Assembly (NCBI RefSeq): GCF_001941425.1
Contig: NZ_CP009244.1
Location: 1,860,001-1,924,000, forward strand
Direction of reading: 5' to 3'
From: Corynebacterium ammoniagenes DSM 20306
GTDB taxonomy: Bacteria; Actinomycetota; Actinomycetes; Mycobacteriales; Mycobacteriaceae
DNA length: 64,000 bases
Part shown: one piece after another, positions 18,086 through 31,459 of the stretch
Layout: every line of letters begins with the position of its first letter
Position numbering within the stretch: the first letter of the stretch is position 1
Made by a program: the position numbers and the translations under genes
Notes under the pieces: generated by a model
Told to the model about the DNA's origin: nothing
Databases searched by the model: none
What the model saw: only the letters and a program-made list of their open reading frames with translations

Positions 18086-18991
18086 ATGCCAGATTATCCC
18101 TTGCCCGCACACCACCTTGGGGTCGAACACCTCGCGGTGTTGGACTTTGTGTGCCTCTCTACAACGCTGTCGATACCAGCGCAGACGCAGGTGCCGGTAA
18201 CGTTGGAGGCGGATAATCGCACCGGTGGATGGCGCATTCGCAGCCTCTTCGGCACACTCGGGTGGCTATCTGCTGAAGAAACAGCAGAATTTCCAGATCT
18301 GGAACTGCTTCGCGCCGCTGGCATGACGGCATCAACAACGGCGGAAGTCGATTTGGATGACGTCGCGGTCAACCTCGGGTTGGCACCGTGGCATATCGCG
18401 CACAACAACCAGCCAGAAGGCACCGTGCTATTGGCAGGTGGGGTTCCAGCGGCGGTGGATACCTCGATGACATCTGATGTCCAGCAGTCCCAGATTGAAG
18501 CGATGGGCACTGCTAGTGTCTTCGTGGAATTTCACCACATCGGCGACGATATCGTCATCACGGTCGATGATTCTGTCTTCGGTCTGCTCGGGCCAGCAGC
18601 AGACTATGAGCTACTCGCACAGCTTTTGGCGCAAGCGCCCATTGCGGCGCGTGCCTATATTGCCTCTGGCATGGTGGCAGTAGATTTACCGGCGGATCCC
18701 CAACAGCTTTTTGCCCCGAATGTCCCGCCACTTTCGTTTGGCATCAATACCCCGCTTATTCCTTCGCCCCTTGCTCTGGGCGGCGAAGCTGCCGATGAGC
18801 TGTTGAATTTCGATCCCGAAGAGTTTGTCGATCCACCACATGCGACCAAACCGGAATCAGCACGCTTTTTCGTCCGGCCTGACTTTGATAACCAGCCCGC
18901 GACCGAAGCGTTCCAGGCACTGTTTCACAAAGACCCTGCTACTGACGCAGACGATGCAGACGAAGCTGGCGATGACGGGAAAGAAACCTAA
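18086..18991 (+). CDS. Hypothetical protein with acidic tail
   Basis: The 301-residue cytoplasmic protein has no membrane segment or signal. The N-terminal 110 residues look like a small beta domain (RIRSLFGTLGWLSAEE). The middle is beta-rich, and the last 35 residues are Asp/Glu/Ala-rich (ADDADEAGDDGKET). I do not recognise the family. It is divergent from the ZIP gene with 54 bp between starts, and its stop overlaps selB at the 3' ends by 4 bp. Confidence 0.7.
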   Translation: MPDYPLPAHHLGVEHLAVLDFVCLSTTLSIPAQTQVPVTLEADNRTGGWRIRSLFGTLGWLSAEETAEFPDLELLRAAGMTASTTAEVDLDDVAVNLGLAPWHIAHNNQPEGTVLLAGGVPAAVDTSMTSDVQQSQIEAMGTASVFVEFHHIGDDIVITVDDSVFGLLGPAADYELLAQLLAQAPIAARAYIASGMVAVDLPADPQQLFAPNVPPLSFGINTPLIPSPLALGGEAADELLNFDPEEFVDPPHATKPESARFFVRPDFDNQPATEAFQALFHKDPATDADDADEAGDDGKET

Positions 18992-20763
18992 GCCACAACC
19001 CGCGTGCTATCGCTGGGGCGCTTTGTAAGGCCGTGTGCGTCCATATATTCCAACAGCGGCACGGCAACACGACGGGTAGTTGCTAGCGCCTTGCGTGCTT
19101 CTGACAGGGTAAATTCGCCCGGCAATTGCGCCAGGATTTTAGCTGCTTGCTTTGGCGCGCTGGGAAGCAGCACAATGCCATCGATGCGCAACAGGCGCCC
19201 GGCGCGCTCTGCTGCGGCCAGCTCACTAGTGCCAAGGCCTAGTCTTTGCAACGTATGTGCATCGGGAGCTACAAAAGGCTCTTGCGCGAGCTGTGCCTCC
19301 AGCTTGGCTACCGCTATTTCTGCCGGACCAAGATCCCGCGGCGCGGCCCCAGGGTCATGGATCATGGCACCCTTTCGGGTCAAACGTGCACCCGCAACGG
19401 CAATGGCCAACAGGCTGTCATCTGGTAAAGCAAGCGTCGATAACGCAGTAGCCAATGGCAGACCTTCAGCCAAAGGGTTCTTCGACATGTACGCATCAAA
19501 GATTTCTCGTAATTGCGCGGTCCACTGCGCAATAGCTTGAGCATTGACCCACCAGGAGCGAAACTCGATTACAGATGACGGCTTGGTGGCCACGTCGAAT
19601 CCCGCTGCAGCCAAGGTGTCTTTCGGCACCGCGCTTTTACGGGCGAGATACGACGATGCGTCGCGGGGATTAAGGTTTTGTAATTCTTCCGCGCGTTGCG
19701 CTGGTGCCCCACGACGCCGTACCCAAGGCGGATCCATATCAATAACTTCAACGCCAGAAAGAGTATCCAGTCCCGAGCCGCGCAGCGCCAAACGGTCGCT
19801 GATCCGCAGCGGCAGGGTGGCCTGCAAGGTTAATCGAGCGTGTTCTGCCCCTAAAGGCCGCACATGCACTGGGACAGTGGCCGTGCCCACGTGGATATTC
19901 AGTTCTTTCGGAACGGTATCCAGTGCAGGGCCGGTCCGCCGCCGCACATCGATGACTTCGGGCTGCCACCAACTGCTCACTGCAGATGTCAGAACATCCC
20001 CACGAGAGATGGCATCAGCATCCACACCGCGCAGGTTAATAGCTAAACGCATAACGGGCTCAGCATGTTCAACGGCATTGTTTTCGCTATGCAGCCCGCG
20101 CACGCTGACTTCATGCACGCCGCTGGCGCTAAGCAGACGTAAGCTATCCCCGACTTTGAGCTGACCCGCAGCCCAAGTCCCGGTTACTACCGTTCCGGCA
20201 CCTTTGACGGAAAACGCCCTGTCAATCCACATTCGCACGGGTTGTTGCGCAGCTGCTGCCAGTTCATCGTTATCAGGAAGTAAGTTCTCAATCGCGCGGC
20301 GCAGCCTGTCCATGCCGTCGCCTGTTCGCGCGGACACAGCATGGATTTCTGCATCCACCAGCGATGTCCCGGCAAGTTTGTCACGCACTGTGGCTTCGGT
20401 AATGCGCTGGCCATTGTCCATGCGGGTGAGCACAATGATTCCCCGGCTAATGCCTAGGGCATCAATGGCTTCGAGGTGTTCAGAGGTCTGTTCCTGCCAG
20501 CCCTCATCGGCGGCAATAACCAACAAGACCGCAGGTACCGGTCCAAGACCTGCCAAAGTATTAGTGATAAACCGTTCATGACCGGGCACATCCACGAAAG
20601 CCACATTGGCGCCGGATTCTAAAGTCGTCCACGCGAACCCGAGGTCAATGGTGAGACCGCGCCGCTTTTCTTCCTGCCAGCGGTCCGGGTCCATGGTCGT
20701 TAACGCATTGACCAGAGTAGATTTGCCGTGATCCACATGGCCGGCCGTTGCAATCACATACAT
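18988..20763 (-). CDS. selB: Selenocysteine-specific elongation factor
   Basis: This 591-residue GTPase delivers Sec-tRNA to UGA codons marked by a SECIS hairpin. The N-terminal GTPase domain shows TAGHVDHGKSTLVNAL (G1, residues 6-21), RRGLTIDLGFAW (switch), DVPGHERFITN (G3) and LTRMDN in place of NKxD. EF-Tu-like domains 2 and 3 follow, then C-terminal winged-helix repeats for SECIS binding. The start ATG directly abuts the selA stop, after AAAGGA. Together with selA, selC and selD it makes a full selenocysteine system. Confidence 0.94.
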   Translation of the reverse strand: MYVIATAGHVDHGKSTLVNALTTMDPDRWQEEKRRGLTIDLGFAWTTLESGANVAFVDVPGHERFITNTLAGLGPVPAVLLVIAADEGWQEQTSEHLEAIDALGISRGIIVLTRMDNGQRITEATVRDKLAGTSLVDAEIHAVSARTGDGMDRLRRAIENLLPDNDELAAAAQQPVRMWIDRAFSVKGAGTVVTGTWAAGQLKVGDSLRLLSASGVHEVSVRGLHSENNAVEHAEPVMRLAINLRGVDADAISRGDVLTSAVSSWWQPEVIDVRRRTGPALDTVPKELNIHVGTATVPVHVRPLGAEHARLTLQATLPLRISDRLALRGSGLDTLSGVEVIDMDPPWVRRRGAPAQRAEELQNLNPRDASSYLARKSAVPKDTLAAAGFDVATKPSSVIEFRSWWVNAQAIAQWTAQLREIFDAYMSKNPLAEGLPLATALSTLALPDDSLLAIAVAGARLTRKGAMIHDPGAAPRDLGPAEIAVAKLEAQLAQEPFVAPDAHTLQRLGLGTSELAAAERAGRLLRIDGIVLLPSAPKQAAKILAQLPGEFTLSEARKALATTRRVAVPLLEYMDAHGLTKRPSDSTRVVA

Positions 20764-22068
20764 TTATTTTTCCTTTTGTTGTGCTGCACGAATCGCGGCA
20801 ATTACGGTGGCATCATCTTCTGTGGGGATACACCGCAAATCAATCAGGCACTGCCCTTGATGTACCCGGGGCAAAACGGCAGGTTGGCCAGTGCGCAAAT
20901 GCGGCGCAAGAGACTCTTCAACGGCCACGGCATAACCTTGCAAAGGATATTCCGGAGCACCTCCCCCGCCCACGCGTCCTTGGTGGTTGATAACGGCGCC
21001 GCCCACAGCCTGCGCTACTTTTTCAGTGCGTGCTAAATAGGCTGTCGGTTCCAGGTGCAAAGCAGTTTGAACAGCATTGCTCGGGGTATTGACGCTTGCT
21101 TCCAGTGCGTTTAATCGCAGCTTATCGATGCGCACTGCCCGCGCCAACGGATGCTTTTTTACCTTGGCAATTGCTTCTTTTGTGCCCAATAAGATCCCGG
21201 CTTGCGGCCCGCCCAGTAACTTATCACCGGACGCAATGACAATATCTGCCCCTGCTGCCAGTTGTGCTTGTAAGTCGGGCTCCTCTGGAAGGGTGTGATC
21301 AGACTGCAGAAGTCCAGAGCCAAGATCCACAATGAGCGAAATCCCCTTCTGATCCGCCAACTGGCGAAGCGGCCCAATGCCTACCGACGAGGTAAAACCA
21401 TCAATCCGAAAATTCGACGGATGCACTTTCAAGATGGCACCAGTTTTCTCCGTGATGGCGTTGTCATAATCTGCCAGGTGCGTGCGATTAGTCGCACCAA
21501 TTTCCCGCAGCCGCACCGAGGTTGATTCAATGAGTTCAGGCAAGCGAAAGCCTGCCCCAATTTCAATCAGCTCGCCGCGCGAGATAATGACTTCTTGCTC
21601 TGGTGCGAGCGCCGCCGTCGCCAGCAGCAAAGCCGCTGCCCCGTTGTTGACTACCAGTGCATCTTCGGCACCTGGGCATGCAGCTAATAAGGCTTCAATC
21701 GCTGCCCGGCCACGGTTTTTCGAACGCAATCCAGTATCAAGATCTAGCTCAACATCTGTGTAGCCAGCAGCAGCAACCAAGGCATCAATTGCTGCCGGCG
21801 GCAAAGGGGCGCGTCCAACATTGGTATGGACGATAACACCAGTCGCATTCAACACGGGTCGCAGTGAGAACGGGGTGGTATCTTGCAGCGCTGTTTCTAC
21901 CTCGGTCATAACGGACTGCGGTGCAATCTCCCCGGAGCGAGCTGCGCTAAGAATCTGGTTGATGCGCGCGCGGATCACGTGCTCTGCAAGATAGCTGCGG
22001 GCATTTTCTACTGCCGGCGACGATAAAATTTCATCAGCGCGAGGAATCAGGCGCCGCGGGTCAGTCAT
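20764..22068 (-). CDS. selA: L-seryl-tRNA(Sec) selenium transferase
   Basis: This PLP enzyme of 434 residues converts Ser-tRNA(Sec) to Sec-tRNA(Sec) with selenophosphate. Visible motifs are VNNGAAALLLATAALA, ISRGELIEIGAGFRLPE, the PLP lysine in ASGDKLLGGPQAGILLG and VDLGSGLL. The start at 22068 (MTDPRRLIPRADEIL) is preceded by AAAGGAG. An earlier ATG at 22086 lies upstream of that site and is rejected. It lies 20 bp downstream of selC and is directly followed by selB. Confidence 0.94.
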   Translation of the reverse strand: MTDPRRLIPRADEILSSPAVENARSYLAEHVIRARINQILSAARSGEIAPQSVMTEVETALQDTTPFSLRPVLNATGVIVHTNVGRAPLPPAAIDALVAAAGYTDVELDLDTGLRSKNRGRAAIEALLAACPGAEDALVVNNGAAALLLATAALAPEQEVIISRGELIEIGAGFRLPELIESTSVRLREIGATNRTHLADYDNAITEKTGAILKVHPSNFRIDGFTSSVGIGPLRQLADQKGISLIVDLGSGLLQSDHTLPEEPDLQAQLAAGADIVIASGDKLLGGPQAGILLGTKEAIAKVKKHPLARAVRIDKLRLNALEASVNTPSNAVQTALHLEPTAYLARTEKVAQAVGGAVINHQGRVGGGGAPEYPLQGYAVAVEESLAPHLRTGQPAVLPRVHQGQCLIDLRCIPTEDDATVIAAIRAAQQKEK

Positions 22069-22087: not shown

Positions 22088-22182
22088 TGGCGGAGACGGA
22101 CAGGAATCGAACCTGCCAGACCAAGCTACTTGGCCTCACCGGTTTTGAAGACCGGGGCGCCCACCAGGACACGTACGCCTCC
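22088..22182 (-). tRNA. selC: tRNA-Sec (anticodon UCA)
   Basis: The minus strand folds into a 95-nt tRNA with acceptor arms GGAGGCG/CGTCTCC, discriminator G and encoded CCA (22088-22090). The anticodon stem CCGGT/ACCGG carries loop CTTCAAA with anticodon TCA, and there is a long variable arm and a T-arm with GGTTCGATTCC. These are the hallmarks of bacterial tRNA-Sec. It sits between selA (same strand, downstream) and selD (divergent, start only 28 bp from the tRNA 5' end). Confidence 0.95.
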
Positions 22183-22197
22183 ACTGATTAAAGGTAG

Positions 22198-22203
22198 TAG
22201 GTT
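22198..22203 (+). promoter_or_regulatory. Possible -10 element of a leaderless selD transcript
   Basis: TAGGTT fits the actinobacterial TANNNT -10 pattern and lies exactly seven bases before the A of the selD ATG. Since only 28 bp separate selD from the tRNA-Sec 5' end, a leaderless start is attractive, but this is inference from spacing. Confidence 0.35.
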
Positions 22204-22210
22204 GGGGATT

Positions 22211-23206
22211 ATGACACCAAAACTTACCTCTTTCGCGGCTGGCGGCGGTTGCGCATGCAAGATTCCCGCAGGTCAGCTTGAATCCGCACTTTCTGGTCTC
22301 TCGGGCAACGACGACCCAAATGTCATTGTCGGTTTAGAAGATGGCGATGATGCCTCCGCCATTCGCATCAATGGTGATACGGCTGTCATTTCCACGGCGG
22401 ACTTTTTCACGCCGATGTTAGATGACCCCTACGACTGGGGACGGGTAGCCGCTGCGAATGCCATCTCCGATGTATACGCAATGGGTGGCACTCCAATTAC
22501 CGCGATTAACCTCGTAGGCTGGCCGGTCGATCTTCTCGGCCTCGACGTCCTGCGTGAGGTCCTACGCGGTGGCATGGACGTGTGCAATGAAGCAGGAATT
22601 TCTGTCACTGGTGGACACTCCATCACCGCTCCAGAACCAATTTATGGCATGTCCGTCACCGGTACCGCTGACCCCGCCAAGCTCATGCGCAATGACACCG
22701 CAGAGCCAGGTCTGCCATTGACCCTGACCAAGGGGATCGGCGTCGGAATCTTTAACAATAAGCACAAGGCCACCGGTGAAGTCTCGGCGGAAGCCGTGGA
22801 ATCAATGACCACTCTCAACCGCGACGCTTCCCAGGCCGCTGTGGCAGCCGGGCACAAAGCAGCCACCGACATCACAGGCTTTGGCTTGCTCGGTCACCTC
22901 TACAAGATGTGCCGCGCGTCGAATATCAACGCCGAGATCAACTTCGCGGATGTCCCAGAAATCTCCGGCGCGAAAGAAGCACTGTATGAAGGCTTTGTTC
23001 CCGGTGGCTCCCGACGCAACCTCGATTGGGTACGTGAGCATCTGAATGTGGAAAATTCTTCCTTGACTGAAGAAGACTTAGTCTTTCTCGCTGATGCTCA
23101 AACCTCAGGTGGTCTGTTGGTAGTCGGCGAGGTTCCGGGATACCCAGTCATTGGCCGCACGGTGGCCCGACCTGATAATTCCGGTGCCTACATCACGATC
23201 AAGTAA
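22211..23206 (+). CDS. selD: Selenide, water dikinase (selenophosphate synthetase)
   Basis: The 331-residue AIR-synthase-fold enzyme makes selenophosphate from selenide and ATP for SelA. The Gly-rich N-terminal loop ends in GGGCACKIPAG with Cys14 and Lys17 at the positions of the catalytic Cys/Lys pair; the codon is TGC, so this is a Cys and not a Sec form. Further motifs are GLEDGDDASAIRI, TADFFTPMLDDPYDWG, AANAISDVYAMGGTP and GGHSITAPEPIYG. The longer frame from 22079 runs through the tRNA gene and is rejected. Confidence 0.95.
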   Translation: MTPKLTSFAAGGGCACKIPAGQLESALSGLSGNDDPNVIVGLEDGDDASAIRINGDTAVISTADFFTPMLDDPYDWGRVAAANAISDVYAMGGTPITAINLVGWPVDLLGLDVLREVLRGGMDVCNEAGISVTGGHSITAPEPIYGMSVTGTADPAKLMRNDTAEPGLPLTLTKGIGVGIFNNKHKATGEVSAEAVESMTTLNRDASQAAVAAGHKAATDITGFGLLGHLYKMCRASNINAEINFADVPEISGAKEALYEGFVPGGSRRNLDWVREHLNVENSSLTEEDLVFLADAQTSGGLLVVGEVPGYPVIGRTVARPDNSGAYITIK

Positions 23207-23306: not shown

Positions 23307-24413
23307 CTAACCGGTGGTAATAATCGTGTGGTCTTGTCCAGATTCCCGAAGCCGTGCTTCTGCACGTCGCTTTTGCGGGCCAATGGTCGCCTCCGGATCC
23401 TTCGCAGACTCAAGCCCGCCTTCTAAGACACCCAACCGCGTGCATAAGGATGCGGCGGCAAGAGATGCTCCAGAAATAATCGATAAGGCACGTGATTTAG
23501 TCACTGATGCCAGCGCGGTTCCCACGCCACCTGCGATAGCGAGATACTCCGACGCCTTCATGAGCTTGCCGGGTTTACCTTGCTGAAGGTGCTTGACGTG
23601 TTCTGGCTCCATATTGTCTTCCATGGTGCGCACCATGGCGAGATCTCCTACAACCCCCGCCATGGCTAAAGCACGCGCGGGAGCAGCATTCTCAACCGGA
23701 GTCGTGATCATCGCTGTACCACCAGCAGCCAACGATGCCGACGCTACGAAAACATAGGGCAAATGTTTTTGTGCACCGTTCCACGTCGGGTTAGACGTAT
23801 CCGATAACAGCACCGCCGTATATCCAGCCAACGGCCCACCTAAGACAGCAGAAACAATACCCGCTGGGCCAGCTGCCGTATGCAAAATACGGTGAACCAC
23901 ATTCGGCAACGGCACAACATCTTTAGCCAGCTCAGCCACTTCCGCAGCAGCCGGAACCGCAGCGGAGACAGAGAACCCACCCAGCAGCCATGAGCCTAAG
24001 CTCATCGGGGATGAAACCTTGAACACGCGGAACATGTTATAAAAGCGCTCTGGACGGCCTAAGTCCAAAACGAGGAAACCAGCACCAGCCGCCGCTGCAG
24101 CAAAGGAAGTCACCCGGGTTGCACGCATCAAGGGCTTGTTCTTCGTTGCTTGGGCTCCTGCGGCGAGCAACGCAGACCCGCCTCCAATGCCTCCGAGCCA
24201 GAAGTACGCACCAATAGGCCACTCCCATGGCGGAGCTTTAACTACCGGTTGGCCATAGTAGCTGGAGAACTCAAAGTCCATGGCCATGCGCTCTTCGCGC
24301 GAACCATCCTGAGCTCCTGCACCCCGCTTCTTCCGTGGGCCTTTACCCTTTTTCTTTCCGCCACGATAACGACGTTCCGATCCCGGTGGGCGATATTCGT
24401 CAAACTCGGCCAT
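23307..24413 (-). CDS. NrfD/PsrC-type membrane subunit of formate dehydrogenase
   Basis: The 368-residue protein has a basic N-terminal tail (RYRGGKKKGKGPRKKRG), then about eight to nine membrane helices with PPWEWPIGAYFWLGGIGGGSALLA and FLVLDLGRPERFYNMFRVFK. These are the usual NrfD/PsrC features for a quinone-interacting membrane anchor. It follows the iron-sulfur subunit without a gap. Inferred role: membrane anchoring and electron transfer from formate to menaquinone. Confidence 0.83.
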   Translation of the reverse strand: MAEFDEYRPPGSERRYRGGKKKGKGPRKKRGAGAQDGSREERMAMDFEFSSYYGQPVVKAPPWEWPIGAYFWLGGIGGGSALLAAGAQATKNKPLMRATRVTSFAAAAAGAGFLVLDLGRPERFYNMFRVFKVSSPMSLGSWLLGGFSVSAAVPAAAEVAELAKDVVPLPNVVHRILHTAAGPAGIVSAVLGGPLAGYTAVLLSDTSNPTWNGAQKHLPYVFVASASLAAGGTAMITTPVENAAPARALAMAGVVGDLAMVRTMEDNMEPEHVKHLQQGKPGKLMKASEYLAIAGGVGTALASVTKSRALSIISGASLAAASLCTRLGVLEGGLESAKDPEATIGPQKRRAEARLRESGQDHTIITTG

Positions 24414-25490
24414 TTACTTCTTCCCTCCTTTGCCCATGACAAATGCAGCCGCCACGGCAACACCCATCGTTCCAACTGCCTTAGCTAAGGTCTTTGCCAT
24501 CGCTGGCAAGTCGGCGGTCGGCACGCGAGGATCTGGTGGAAGACCGTAGACCTCAGGCGAATCCAGCAAGAGGAAGATGGATCCGGTTCCGCCCACGCCA
24601 TCTTCATCATTGGCACCGTATAGACGCGCCTCGGTCTGGCCTTGGGCATGAAGCTCAGCCACGCGCTTTTGCGCTGCAGCGAGCATGGATTCATAAGTAC
24701 CGAACTGGATAGAGTCAGTAGGACAAGCCTTGGAACACGCTGGTTCCTCCCCCATCTTCAAACGGTCGTAGCACATGGTGCATTTTTGAGCCACGCCAAG
24801 ATTCTTAATCGGCATGGTTTCGCCTGGAACGTGGTCAGGCCCTTGAGGACGCAGCTGTTGGAGCTTCTTAAACACGTTAATACCAGCATGATCCGGTACT
24901 TCTTGTGCTTCCACGTGATTGGCTTTCAAGGAGACACCGCCGTCCTCGCGGCGTTCAATAACACCAAATGGACAACCAGCTACGCACGTACCGCAGCCAT
25001 TGCACACATCATCTTGGACCACGACGGTGCCGAACTCAGTGCGGAACAACGCACCCGTTGGGCACACATCCAAACATCCGGCATTGGTGCAGTGCTTGCA
25101 CACATCGGACGACATCAGCCACCGGAAAGTATCCGTGTCTGGCGGAGTGGTGTCTACCGCCGCGGGAGTGTCTTCCTCCTTACCGATTTTGGGCATGCCC
25201 AGCGAGACCAGCTTGGCGCCTTCCTCACGGGCTTTGGTAATACGCTCATTATCTTGCTCAATAAACGCCACGTGCCGCCACGTGTTTGCGCCCAGGGACC
25301 CAGTGTTGTCATAGGAATTACCCGTCAGGTTATAGCCCTCAACAGGGTTGCGGTTCCATTCCTTACAGGCAACCTCACAGGCTTTACAGCCGATGCACAC
25401 TGAGGTGTCAGTAAAAAAGGCCATGCGTTGATATTTGTCGTAGCCGTGCCCATGCGAACTTTCAGTCAGCTGGTTTGTCGACGCCGTCAT
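24414..25490 (-). CDS. Formate dehydrogenase iron-sulfur (beta) subunit
   Basis: The 358-residue protein carries four ferredoxin-type Cys clusters: CIGCKACEVACKEWN (about 32-46), CKHCTNAGCLDVCP, CNGCGTCVAGCP and CTMCYDRL...CSKACP. It also has one C-terminal hydrophobic helix (LAKAVGTMGVAVAAAFVMG). It shuttles electrons from the molybdenum subunit to the membrane subunit. Its ATG overlaps the TAA of the catalytic subunit by one base (TAATG), so synthesis is coupled. Confidence 0.9.
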   Translation of the reverse strand: MTASTNQLTESSHGHGYDKYQRMAFFTDTSVCIGCKACEVACKEWNRNPVEGYNLTGNSYDNTGSLGANTWRHVAFIEQDNERITKAREEGAKLVSLGMPKIGKEEDTPAAVDTTPPDTDTFRWLMSSDVCKHCTNAGCLDVCPTGALFRTEFGTVVVQDDVCNGCGTCVAGCPFGVIERREDGGVSLKANHVEAQEVPDHAGINVFKKLQQLRPQGPDHVPGETMPIKNLGVAQKCTMCYDRLKMGEEPACSKACPTDSIQFGTYESMLAAAQKRVAELHAQGQTEARLYGANDEDGVGGTGSIFLLLDSPEVYGLPPDPRVPTADLPAMAKTLAKAVGTMGVAVAAAFVMGKGGKK

Positions 25491-28400
25491 TATTCTTCGC
25501 CTCCTTCAGCTTCATCTGACTCAGAGTCGGGAACATCCCCGGTCGCTGAGCCATTGTGTGCAGAACCATCATTGGCACCTTCTTGCCCACCCTGGGGAGC
25601 CGTTTCTCCATCAAGGTTTCTGCGTAGTTCAGTTTCCTGATCAGGTTTGAAAGCCACACCAGGTGCCTGTTCCGAATTCACTACCGTCTCGCCATCCTGC
25701 TTATCGGTATCGATAAGTTCGTTGCCGGAATCCAGCGTCAGACCTGCGCGCTTTTGGTATTCCTTCACCAACGCCACGCGAGCCTTGCCGCGTGGACGAC
25801 GTCCCGCCTTAATCTCGCAGGCGCCCACCTTGGAGTTTTGGATAAATACATTGGGCTCCAAGGTCAAACCAAGCAGGTCATTCGCGCCGTCACCAGTGAC
25901 CGGTGACGAGCTGGACTGACCGTAGTGGAATGGCAGACCGATCTGGTGGAAATCTTCCCCATTGATCGTCATAGGTTCCATACGTTCGGTGACCAAGGCA
26001 CGTGCTTCAATTACACCACGTGGCGAAATGATCGTTGCCCAGCCGCCATTTTCCAGTCCTCGCTTTTCAGCGAGCACAGGGTCAACCTCAACGAACAGGT
26101 CGGGCTGCAGTTCCGCAAGGTACGGCAAACGACGACTCATCGAACCCGAGGTGTACATCTCCGTCAACCGGTACGTAGAAAACACCACTGGATACACATC
26201 AGAGCCCGGCTCCCCAGCCATTGGCCGAGACAGGTTATCGGGACGTTTGATGGTCATACGCGTCGGTGATTGCTGCTGGCTATACAAAATATTGCGCGCC
26301 GGCGACTCATGTGGCTCGTAGTGCGTCGGCAATGGGCCATCAGAAAGTCCTTTGGGTGCAAACAACCAGCCTCGGCCATCCGCCTGCATGATAAACGCAT
26401 CGGTGCCATCAAGAGCATCAGGCCCCGTAGCATCAATCGGCGCACGATGAGACGGGTCAAGAGTGGCCGGGAAGTCCGGCACGTCATCACCTGTCCAGCG
26501 GCCCGCTTCTGCATCCCACCAGATGTACTTTTTACGTTCCGACCACGGCGTTCCATCGGGAGCTGCCGAAGCACGGTTGTACAAGATACGACGGTTGGAA
26601 GGCCACGCCCAGCCCCACTCGAGTGCAACCTCATTTTGGGAGGAGCCAGATACCTTGCGAGCCGCCTGGTTTACGTTGTCCTTGAAGACACCGGTGTAAA
26701 TCCAGCAACCACCTGAGGTACTGCCATCAGTTGCCATCTCGGTATAGCTAGGCAGCAATTGACCCTTCTTCGGGCCATCCAAGTAGTAGCCATTGATTTC
26801 ACGCAGCACGTCTTCTGGATCCGGCTCACCGTGACCGACTTCCTCATAATCCCAATCGATAGCCAACATTGGCGCATCCATCGGATCAGTTGAGCCAGCC
26901 AGCTTTTCACGGATACGCTTGCCCAGCTGGTAGAAGAACCAGAGATCAGACCTGGAATCTCCTGGCGGATTGGTCGCCTGGAAACGCCACTGCAGCATGC
27001 GCTGTGTCTGCGTAAAGGTACCAGCCTTTTCTACGTGCGTTGCCGCAGGCAAAAGGAAGACCTCTGTACCAATTTCTTCAGTCTTGAGCTCTCCAGTCTT
27101 AATCTCTGGCGAGTCGTACCAAAACGAAGCCGTCTCGGTTTCTTGGAAGTCGCGGACAACCAACCACTTGAGGGAAGCCAGGCCGCGACGCTGCATACCA
27201 CCATTGGACTGCGCGACGGCAGGGTTTTGGCCGAAGACCAAGAAGCCTTCGACGATGCCATCGAGCATGCCCATCAATGTCTCATATGTTGAGTGCGCAC
27301 CGTTGATGCGCGGCATGTAGTTCCAGCCCCAGTCGTTTTCCTTAGTGGCGTTATCGCCCCAGTAGGACTTCATCAAAGAAACCGCGTAATTCTCACGCAA
27401 GCCCCAGAAGCCCTTCTGGTCTGCCTTGGCGGTGGCATCCAAGAAGTCATTCCAGGTGGTGTGATCCGCATGTGGCATCGGTAGATAACCCGGCAGATTG
27501 TTAAATAGCGTCGGGATATCGGTCGAGCCCTGAATAGAGGCGTGACCGCGCAAAGCCATGATGCCTGAACCTGGACGACCCACATTGCCCATCAGCAGCT
27601 GCAAAATGGCAGCGGTGCGAATGAACTGTGCACCCAGGGTGTGCTGGGTAAAGCCCAGAGCATAGGCAAAAACCGTAGTCCGCTCAGGGTTGGAGTTCTG
27701 CGCAATCGATTCGGCTAGATAATGGAAATCCTCCTGTGAAATGCCACAGGTTTCTTCCACAATTTCCGGGGTGTACCGCGAGTAGTGGCGCTTAAGAATC
27801 TGAAAGACCGTATTCGAGTCTTGCAAAGTTTCATCGCGTTCCACATTCCACGAGGAACCCTCCGGCTTTTCTACGTACTGCCAGGAATCGGTGACATACT
27901 TTCCGGTCTCTGGGTTGTAACCAGAAAATAGGCCGTCCAAGTCTTCCGTATCGAGGAAGTCCGGCGAAATGATCGACGAAGCATTGGTGTAATTGACCAC
28001 GTAGTCGTGGAAGTACAAATCATTGTCGATCATGTACTTAATCAATGCACCCAGCAGAACTACGTCAGTGCCACCGCGAATAGCGATGTGACGGTTCGCA
28101 AATGCGGAAGTACGTGTGTAGCGAGGATCGACGTGAATAACACGAGCACCACGCTTTTTGGCTTCAGCTACCCACTGGAAACCCACGGGGTGGCATTCGG
28201 CCATATTTGAACCCTGAATGAGAATGCAATCAGCATTCGCCATATCCTGCAGTGGTTGGGTTGCGCCACCGCGGCCAAACGAGGATCCCAAACTGGGAAC
28301 CGTGGCGGAGTGTCATATACGAGCTTGGTTTTCGACCTGCACCGCGCCAGCTGCCGTAAACAGCTTTTTAATGATGTAGTTTTCCTCGTTATCCAAGGTT

Positions 28401-28879
28401 GCGCCGCCCAGGCCAGCCACACCCATGGTGCGGTTGAGGACGCGGCCTTCATCATCTTGGTCTTGCCACTGATTGCGGCGAGACTCGATAAAACGATCCG
28501 CGATCATATCCATCGCGGTTTCGATATCGATGTCTTCCCACTCAGTAGCGTAGGGAGCGCGGTATTTGAGCTTGGTCAAACGCGTCGCGGAGTTTACGAG
28601 CTGCTCCGACGCTGCACCCTTGGGGCACAGGCGACCACGAGAAACAGGTGAATCTGGGTCACCTTCAATATGAACGACACGGTCGTCTTTAACATAAACG
28701 CGCTGTGAGCAACCCACAGCGCAATAAGGACAGACCGATTGGACGACCTTGTCGGCCTCGACAGTGCGTCCGTGCAGCTCACGTGATTTGGATGACTGGG
28801 TCGATTTGTCCCTGCCAAACAAGTCGCCGCGCTGCATCTGGCGCACAACTGGCCAATTGAGCGGACTTAACTTCGACAT
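25490..28879 (-). CDS. fdhF: Selenocysteine-containing formate dehydrogenase, catalytic subunit
   Basis: The reading frame is interrupted by one TGA (28313-28315). Read as Sec it gives 1129 residues with Sec189 in NQARI-U-HSATVPSLG, exactly where molybdopterin formate dehydrogenases carry Sec or Cys. Upstream is the [4Fe-4S] motif CPYCAVGC...RLCPKGAAS. Downstream are the bis-MGD domains and a C-terminal MopB-binding domain, ending in a long Asp/Glu/Gly-rich tail. There is no twin-arginine signal, so a cytoplasmic active site is likely. The start is ATG 28879 (MSKLSPLNWPVVRQM); GTG 28927 is an alternative. All machinery for Sec insertion lies 3-10 kb away. Confidence 0.95.
28268..28315 (-). 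promoter_or_regulatory. Bacterial SECIS element with UGA codon
   Basis: Counting the U of UGA as 1, nucleotides 15-33 form a hairpin: GG at 15-16, U17 unpaired against U31, U18-A30, CCC/GGG, and loop A22-G23-U24-U25-U26. The GGUU at 15-18, the unpaired U17 and the loop G23-U24 match the SelB contacts known for the E. coli fdhF SECIS at the same spacing. An outer 6-bp stem CGCCAC/GTGGCG (9-14 with 47-52) may enclose it; nt 49-52 extend to 28264. Confidence 0.85.
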
Positions 28880-29017
28880 GACACTAAAGTTACCTGATGA
28901 AAGTACTTTTGACACCCTATTTGGCACCAGCCGCCCAAATCGTGTGCCCCTATTTCCAGGCGAAATCTCTTGACATTTCGCTCCGCTACGAACAGCGACG
29001 CTGAATGTGTAGAGGTG

Positions 29018-30091: not shown

Positions 30092-31147
30092 ATGCGTCTT
30101 GCTCACCGCTTAGCTGGACTTGTTGCCGCCGGCGTCGTCGCTGGCATCACTGCTACTGGAGCTACCACCCTTGCGCCAGTAGCTGTCGCTGCAACCCACA
30201 CCGAGTCTTACCCTGAGACTCCGGCGCTCAATCCCACGTTGCCAATCATTCACACCAGCCATAAATCTGACCACCAGAAATCGAATGTGCTCAACCCGCG
30301 CCCGATTTGTAACCCGTGGGAAGATCACCGCACGGTGGTCTACAAGGTAACCGATAAGTTCTTGCCGGTGGGAACCATCTCCACCACCAACCAAACCGAA
30401 CACGACATCCCACTGACCCAGGATCTGTCCAAGTCCCAGACCATCACTTTGAGCGTGGAGGGCGACCGAACCTCCACCACATCGATGAATGGCGGACTGT
30501 CCAAAGACGGCGGTTCTGTAGGTATCTCTCACAGCATCGCCCAGAAGATCGGTGGCTCCGCGTCCTATTCTTTGACCTGGGATGCTGGTCAGACTATCGG
30601 ACCTTATGATGTGCCACCAAACCACACCGGTGAAGCAACCTATGGCTTCCGCGTATTGAACATGACCGGCACTCAGCAGTATTGCAAGCCCAACGGCACG
30701 TGGTCTACCCCGACGTTCTGGTCTGCACTGCAACCGATGAAAAATGAAGTGCGGGTCAAACTTTATGACAATATTGCAGACTCCTGGGCACCCAACGACA
30801 ATGCACAAGGTACTACTCCTGTCGTAGAGCAAGAAGACAAAGATCTTGAGGCGGACGCGGAAATCAACTCGGAAAACGAGGTTCCTGCGGCCGAGGACGC
30901 TGTCTCGACCGCCGAAGGAAACCGCGAGGTTGCGGAAGATAAAGAGGTCGAAAAGTCTCTCGAAGAGGGAAAGACCGAAGACCATAAGCTCGACCTCAAG
31001 CCGTATTTCACCGTCTCCGGTGCCAAAGTCTCTGGCGCTGCCGGAACCGTTGCGCTTCGCGTCGAAAATGTCGGTTCTGAACGCTACTACGGCGAATTTC
31101 CGGCCATCCAATACCGCGTCGATGTCAAAACGGATCGTGGACCTTAA
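30092..31147 (+). CDS. Secreted protein with beta-rich domain, truncated by in-frame TAA
   Basis: The 351 residues start with a signal peptide (MRLAHRLAG, hydrophobic LVAAGVVAGITATGATT, cleavage after AVA near 33). Residues about 85-190 are rich in alternating Ser/Thr and Gly (SKSQTITLSVEGD, GGSVGISHSIAQKIGGSASYSLTW), followed by GPYDVPPNHTGEATYGFRV. This pattern resembles the insertion-strand region of aerolysin/ETX-MTX2-like proteins, but I cannot confirm it. An acidic helical linker follows (about 235-295). The last residues RVDVKTDRGP run into a TAA, yet the same frame stays open for another 104 codons, so the native C-terminal domain is probably cut. Confidence 0.7.
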   Translation: MRLAHRLAGLVAAGVVAGITATGATTLAPVAVAATHTESYPETPALNPTLPIIHTSHKSDHQKSNVLNPRPICNPWEDHRTVVYKVTDKFLPVGTISTTNQTEHDIPLTQDLSKSQTITLSVEGDRTSTTSMNGGLSKDGGSVGISHSIAQKIGGSASYSLTWDAGQTIGPYDVPPNHTGEATYGFRVLNMTGTQQYCKPNGTWSTPTFWSALQPMKNEVRVKLYDNIADSWAPNDNAQGTTPVVEQEDKDLEADAEINSENEVPAAEDAVSTAEGNREVAEDKEVEKSLEEGKTEDHKLDLKPYFTVSGAKVSGAAGTVALRVENVGSERYYGEFPAIQYRVDVKTDRGP

Positions 31148-31459
31148 GGTGTCGATCGTTTGATCACCCCACGCTCGTCCAAAGGCGCGCATATTCGCGA
31201 CTTAGGTTTTGATGAAAAGACCTCCACTCGCTCCTTTGAAGTAACGCTGTCTAATCCGATCAACGCGGGTGATAAAGCACGCGTGGCCAACCTGGACTTT
31301 GGCGATGGACTCACCAAAGAAGGTCGCCTTCACAACTACATCGAGGTCACCCAAACTTCTCGCCTTAAAGGTGATACTTCCGAGTACAACGACCAAAAGG
31401 TAGATTCCCGTCAAGCGACTGTGACCGACACCGGTAAGAGCTTCAACGGCACCTTCTAG
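31148..31459 (+). pseudogene. Severed C-terminal part of the secreted protein
   Basis: It lies in the same frame as the gene ending at 31147 and continues its beta-domain without a gap: GVDRLITPRSSKGAHIRD, then RSFEVTLSNPINAGDKARVANLDFG, ending GKSFNGTF at a TAG. A separate start at TTG 31160 has no ribosome-binding site. The simplest reading is that one nonsense change (TAA at 31145-31147) split a gene of about 455 codons. Readthrough or a base-call error are the alternatives. Confidence 0.75.

Follow-up and report, generated by a model that had tools for sequence, protein, structure and literature searches.

Formate dehydrogenases (FDHs) with selenocysteine (Sec) in the alpha subunit have been described or proposed in Corynebacterium aurimucosum ATCC 700975, in A. 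chiangmaiensis DSM 45062 (presumably an Actinomycetospora) and in Escherichia coli. The locus analysed here lies in a 64,000-nucleotide stretch of Corynebacterium ammoniagenes DSM 20306 (contig NZ_CP009244.1, positions 1,860,001 to 1,924,000; hereafter the window), and the product of its gene fdhA is almost certainly the alpha subunit of a membrane-anchored FDH of the molybdopterin type, with Sec as active-site residue 189. One region of C. aurimucosum (fdnG-fdxH-selABD-selC) was reported in 2010 to unite selABD and selC with an fdnG that has an internal UGA (PMC2830990). The window resembles it in the gene set, the neighbourhood, the UGA in fdnG and the proposal of a Sec FDH, but belongs to a different species; the FDH of genome G012, taken as that strain, is 80% identical to that of the window. 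In A. chiangmaiensis, formate removal by FDH1 depends on selenite, the subunits were detected by proteomics, and bSECISearch was used (PMC7176365). FDH1, like the window, combines a Sec alpha subunit (1078 aa), beta and gamma subunits, SelA and SelB in one cluster, but A. chiangmaiensis possesses three Sec FDH systems instead of one, and its SelD lies outside the cluster. Sec-decoding genes and fdhA are often adjacent, particularly if fdhA is the sole selenoprotein gene (PMC5029168, PMC1794560). The Sec FDH arrangement itself is therefore textbook biology; what is added here is covariation in the Sec insertion sequence (SECIS) hairpin, the identical occurrence of FDH, selB and tRNA-Sec in 64 genomes, and the lack of a thiol FdhF-type enzyme over cut-off in the three genomes searched.

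The gene and its two recoding elements are as follows.

25490..28879, minus strand: fdhA (fdnG-like), FDH alpha subunit, 1129 codons, predicted Sec at residue 189
28313..28315, minus strand: in-frame TGA, predicted to be read as Sec, in the context NQARI-U-HSATVPSLG
28284..28300, minus strand: putative SECIS apical hairpin, columns 16-32 (U of UGA = 1), with a bulged U17

The fdhA frame translates to 1129 residues and a stop with a single in-frame TGA, residue 189, and is open for 188 codons on the 5' side and 940 codons on the 3' side of it. An earlier note, made by a model from the letters of the window, had joined two frames into this gene, and its coordinates are exact on translation. It had also predicted that an automatic caller would report two pieces, as is seen in the mechanical list of open reading frames, which without recoding contains frames of 204 aa (28313-28927) and 933 aa (25490-28291). 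The joined FdhA scores 1757.9 bits against NF041513 (cut-off 1400) and 949.3 bits over residues 25-1015 against TIGR01553, formate dehydrogenase-N alpha (cut-off 814.2), as expected from the family named in that note, which it rightly treated as established knowledge (PMC2830990). FdhA contains Fe4S4, molybdopterin and dinucleotide-binding domains; the Fe4S4 domain is located entirely N-terminal to residue 189, a residue that the match to the molybdopterin domain (151-586) includes. Structure alignments place residue 189, the Sec position proposed earlier, opposite X (a non-standard residue, here Sec) in E. coli FDH-N (1kqf), the alpha subunit of which is homologous over query residues 44-1016, and in D. 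gigas FDH (1h0h); in chain 9qm0, which was deposited under the description of a selenocysteine-containing FDH, the aligned letter is C. The split gene is not a product of chance, because the frame is long and open on both sides, matches one family along its length, and keeps the TGA in all 65 Corynebacterium copies. The earlier reading of the family, the Sec position and the single gene is thus supported; it was silent on the strongest evidence, the Sec-decoding cassette and the SECIS hairpin. As a separate observation, the C-terminal ~68 residues of FdhA (window 25493-25696, minus strand) look acidic and of low complexity, and the matches of many relatives stop near residue 1055-1070.

The hairpin consists of a stem (18-21/27-30), a loop (22-26) containing G23-U24, and a base pair (16-32) beyond the bulged U17. 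Synonymous conservation, calculated from the 49 of 65 copies kept after a 93% nucleotide identity filter, peaks among 979 fifteen-codon segments in the one with the TGA as its first codon (excess over expectation 0.199; mean -0.001, sd 0.048), and the top 15 segments all start -5 to +9 codons from the TGA. Across 48 distinct Corynebacterium stretches, pairs 16-32, 19-29 and 20-28 and bases U17, G23 and U24 are invariant, pair 21-27 occurs as C-G (31) or U-A (17), and pair 18-30 as U-A (43), C-G (4) or U-G (1); the loop reads AGUUU in 29, AGUCU in 12 and GGUCU in 7. Single-sequence folding gave no significant z-score, and covariation was used instead, on an alignment of 37 stretches (29 of the 48, and eight from outside the genus). 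Here the five hairpin pairs are standard pairs in all 185 cells, and the loop ends pair as A-U (26) or G-U (11) in 37/37. The five pairs score 0.405 for covariation, and shuffles 0.114 (sd 0.022). Both covarying pairs link third codon positions, 18-30 those of V and G and 21-27 those of P and L, and protein constraint is therefore no explanation for them. On a tree built without the hairpin region, pair 21-27 changes five times on each side and five times jointly, pair 18-30 two and three times on its sides and three times jointly, and pair 15-33 thirteen and nine times on its sides and 16 times jointly.

The window hairpin also resembles the SECIS of E. coli fdhF, in which U17, G23 and U24 are important; the E. 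coli sequence confirms that these bases stand equally distant from the UGA. The loops differ, with 6 nt in the E. coli pairing and 5 nt in the window, where the stem is C-C-rich. In the bacterial SECIS model of PMC13188914, the apical loop measures 3-9 nt and the upper stem 4-16 bp, a G stands at loop position 1 or 2 (typically N1-G-[G/U]-N-N2), the UGA lies 16-37 nt from the apical loop, and the minimum free energy (MFE) is at most -7.5 kcal/mol. The hairpin of the window falls within every one of these limits, with a 5-nt loop, four stacked pairs and one past the bulge, a suitably placed G in all three loop sequences, a spacing of 18 nt (columns 4-21), and MFEs of -19.5, -18.9 and -12.5 kcal/mol in cuts of 66, 51 and 40 nt that include the hairpin. 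A genome search with Rfam RF00031 found no match, nor did it in 14 controls, and is uninformative here, since that family models the eukaryotic SECIS. Literature term searches, within the library that they covered, found no paper on covariation in corynebacterial SECIS elements.

Even with Sec inserted, the hairpin could be a mere by-product that follows from codon preference and the conserved protein, and several observations do weigh against the functional element proposed here. The lower stem is weakly supported, with 88.1% of its cells pairing, and pair 15-33 is not kept, forming in 36/48 stretches. The folding energy is ordinary for the base composition (z -0.17, -1.07 and -0.86), and two shuffle measures are weak: 437/500 shuffles equal the observed two pairs with two-sided changes or surpass them (shuffle mean 1.9), and 11/500 do so for the number of pair types. 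Against a by-product, the covariation falls at third codon positions on both sides of the stem, and sliding lowers paired cells from 100% to at most 68.6% and the covariation score to at most 0.157. Furthermore, 315 other third-position columns carry 6 or more minority letters, a filter that pair 18-30 with its 5 minority copies would itself fail, and of the 49,455 pairs that they form, none is perfectly Watson-Crick and 7 are so with G-U allowed; for columns no more than 6 codons apart (1,716 pairs), the count stays at 0 even with G-U allowed. We consider the by-product explanation very improbable.

The distribution of the gene points to Sec as well. Across the 201 Corynebacterium genomes analysed, which were sampled evenly from a larger set, FDH, selB over cut-off and tRNA-Sec over cut-off occur in the identical 64 genomes (Fisher p = 4e-54, in which independence is overstated since the species are related). 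Those 64 genomes carry 65 FDH copies, and TGA occupies the site in every one. G088 has two TGA-bearing copies (loci L087 and L094), ~6.5 kb apart. A further 72 loci (L097-L168) were obtained from a class survey of 296 genomes, a GTDB scan and a targeted fetch, the last comprising 10 copies selected for having no reported stop and 4 with TGA. The codon was read in 67 of them as TGA (57), TGC (9) or TGT (1); the five without a passing reading are L133, which has the motif with TGA and is without the upstream cluster motif, L148, L151, L153 and L154. Seven of the 67 are repeats, leaving 60 distinct loci outside the first 65, of which 50 have TGA and 10 have Cys, a proportion that is not a frequency, since Cys loci were deliberately selected. 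The earlier note had held that homologues with a sense codon at the site would speak against Sec. Such homologues do exist, but all ten encode Cys, which fits Sec/Cys replacement and is no refutation; that test was poorly chosen.

Sixteen of these genomes were also compared with the selB profile (cut-off 242.25). In the nine with only a Cys copy read, the best score is at most 207.3 bits, as Sec/Cys replacement predicts, and G237, in which the codon was not read, reaches 198.5 bits. In the six with a TGA copy, a selB match of 225.7-252.4 bits shares the contig with the FDH and lies no more than ~13 kb from it, and three of the six exceed the cut-off. G331 contains one Cys and one Sec FDH copy (L159, L160), and its best selB match and the Sec copy share a contig.

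Since in-frame stops usually mean a pseudogene, the TGA might be a nonsense mutation or a sequencing error. Two of the 65 copies, L083 (G008) and L085 (G132), add to this suspicion and count against the Sec reading, as each has an extra in-frame TAG, 184 and 303 codons past the Sec TGA, respectively; in both, selB and tRNA-Sec are present, and intact copies occur among relatives. Nevertheless, an identical codon at an identical site in 65/65 copies over 64 genomes, its recurrence in 50 of the 60 distinct further loci with Cys in the remainder, and the synonymous conservation surrounding it make a pseudogene extremely unlikely.

The second line of evidence is the Sec-decoding cassette, located 2.3 to 6.5 kb past the 3' end of fdhA, beyond the genes of two further subunits.

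24414..25490, minus strand: fdhB, iron-sulphur beta subunit with Fer4 domains; its ATG overlaps the fdhA stop by one base
23307..24413, minus strand: NrfD-family membrane subunit in the gamma position (PF03916, 75.0 bits, cut-off 25.8)
22211..23206, plus strand: selD, selenophosphate synthetase, Cys form GGGCACK (TIGR00476, 384.9 bits, cut-off 125)
22088..22182, minus strand: selC, tRNA-Sec, anticodon TCA (ARAGORN; Rfam RF01852, 77.7 bits, cut-off 47)
20764..22068, minus strand: selA, Sec synthase (TIGR00474, 417.4 bits, cut-off 267.9)
18988..20763, minus strand: selB, Sec-specific elongation factor (TIGR00475, 320.9 bits, cut-off 242.25), with a C-terminal SelB winged helix (PF09107)

The Sec-decoding trait is complete, with tRNA-Sec, SelA, SelB and SelD all present. 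That the TGA is decoded as another amino acid (e.g. Trp), or that the halves, each a long open frame, are made as separate polypeptides, can be dismissed with near certainty in view of this machinery, the covarying SECIS hairpin, Cys as the only substitute at the site (10/60), and a molybdopterin match (151-586) that spans residue 189 behind the Fe4S4 domain. The likely start of selD is the ATG at 22211, with a longer TTG frame from 22079, and that of selA is the ATG at 22068, preceded by AAGGAG, with a longer GTG frame from 22086. The divergent selD and tRNA-Sec genes are separated by 28 nt (window 22183-22210, likely selD ATG to tRNA-Sec 5' end), and because this gap is so short, at least one promoter of the pair probably overlaps a gene.

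Gene order was surveyed in 29 loci from GTDB species records (tblastn, E 1e-10, window proteins as queries). The sel genes lie within the fetched stretch in nine of them, and seven keep the order fdhA-fdhB-nrfD, selD (opposite strand), selC, selA, selB: Corynebacterium sp. HMSC04H06, C. phocae, Corynebacterium sp. J010B-136, a Mycobacteriaceae metagenome-assembled genome, Arthrobacter gallicola and two Mycolicibacter. The order differs in Kibdelosporangium, with the sel genes upstream, and in Janibacter, with tRNA-Sec on the opposite strand. The stretches of the other 20 loci, many of them short or from distant phyla, gave no sel match; fdhA is present in them, in most cases with fdhB and in many with the NrfD gene. 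Elsewhere in the window, three long frames are without Pfam matches, at 18086-18991 (plus strand), 30092-31147 (plus strand) and 30110-31192 (minus strand); since the second and third run in opposite directions over shared sequence, at most one of them is likely a gene.

The complex does not match FDH-N (FdnGHI) as such. FdhB scores 175.2 bits against the FDH beta subunit model TIGR01582, below its cut-off of 334.7, and the membrane protein adjoining fdhB matches only NrfD families (PF03916, PF14589), unlike E. coli FdnI, a cytochrome b-type subunit. No twin-arginine motif, a difference from E. coli FDH-N, was spotted in the FdhA N-terminus on inspection by eye, and the enzyme may accordingly lie on the cytoplasmic side. 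By analogy with known Sec systems, SelD would make selenophosphate, SelA would convert Ser-tRNA-Sec to Sec-tRNA-Sec, and SelB would deliver the latter to the UGA with its winged-helix end bound to the hairpin, which starts 15 nt past the U of the UGA. Sec189 would then be a ligand to the metal in the bis-MGD cofactor, and electrons would reach the quinone pool by way of FdhB and the NrfD-type protein in the membrane. A recoding efficiency of 30-40% in E. coli (PMC4513850) suggests that some truncated product may be expected as well.

Meanwhile, fdhD of C. aurimucosum has been called an additional standard (thiol) formate dehydrogenase (PMC2830990). This view is not supported here, because FdhD of the window's genome, in which the family scan was performed, matches the NCBIfam accessory sulphurtransferase family, and because no thiol FdhF-type enzyme (TIGR01701) exceeds the cut-off in G000, G012 and G150, a search in which metal-free NAD-dependent FDHs were not included; the sole TIGR01701 match in these genomes is the Sec FDH itself. 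In the window's genome, fdhD (G000 505350-506081, L173) adjoins a formate/nitrite-family transporter. A second P0001 match in that genome was rejected; it is narG-like, reaches 1055.6 bits (cut-off 1084.15), and its frame is cut by the locus end.

The residues behind the site offer a further lead, which is not a result. P occupies the position that follows H-S-x-T/S-V in 65/65 Corynebacterium copies and in 50/50 distinct Sec copies beyond these; the ten Cys copies have A (6), V (3) or S (1) instead. Possibly, though with the balance tilted slightly against it, Corynebacterium keeps its Sec machinery for one client, and the hairpin, rather than enzyme chemistry, fixes V-P-[S/G]-L-G after Sec. 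The Sec chains of 1kqf and 1h0h have A at this position, which would tie the proline to the stem sequence of the family and not to Sec as such, and which lowered our estimate for this whole reading from an even chance to somewhat below it. The Cys copies also resemble each other and may reflect one event or lineage. As regards a single client, a covariance model of the window SECIS gave one clear match in the window's genome (E 6.7e-17; next E 2.46), the model being FDH-biased and applied to that genome only, such that other selenoproteins are possible; selenouridine synthase (TIGR03167) has no match there.

For annotation, callers that stop at TGA split fdhA, and the enzyme is easily dropped. 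If the hairpin does fix the peptide, loss of selB would release codon choice and protein sequence alike. The 64/64/64 pattern, together with the synonymous covariation, makes Corynebacterium a tidy natural test set for Sec retention and loss, a genus in which the 21st amino acid may serve one enzyme.

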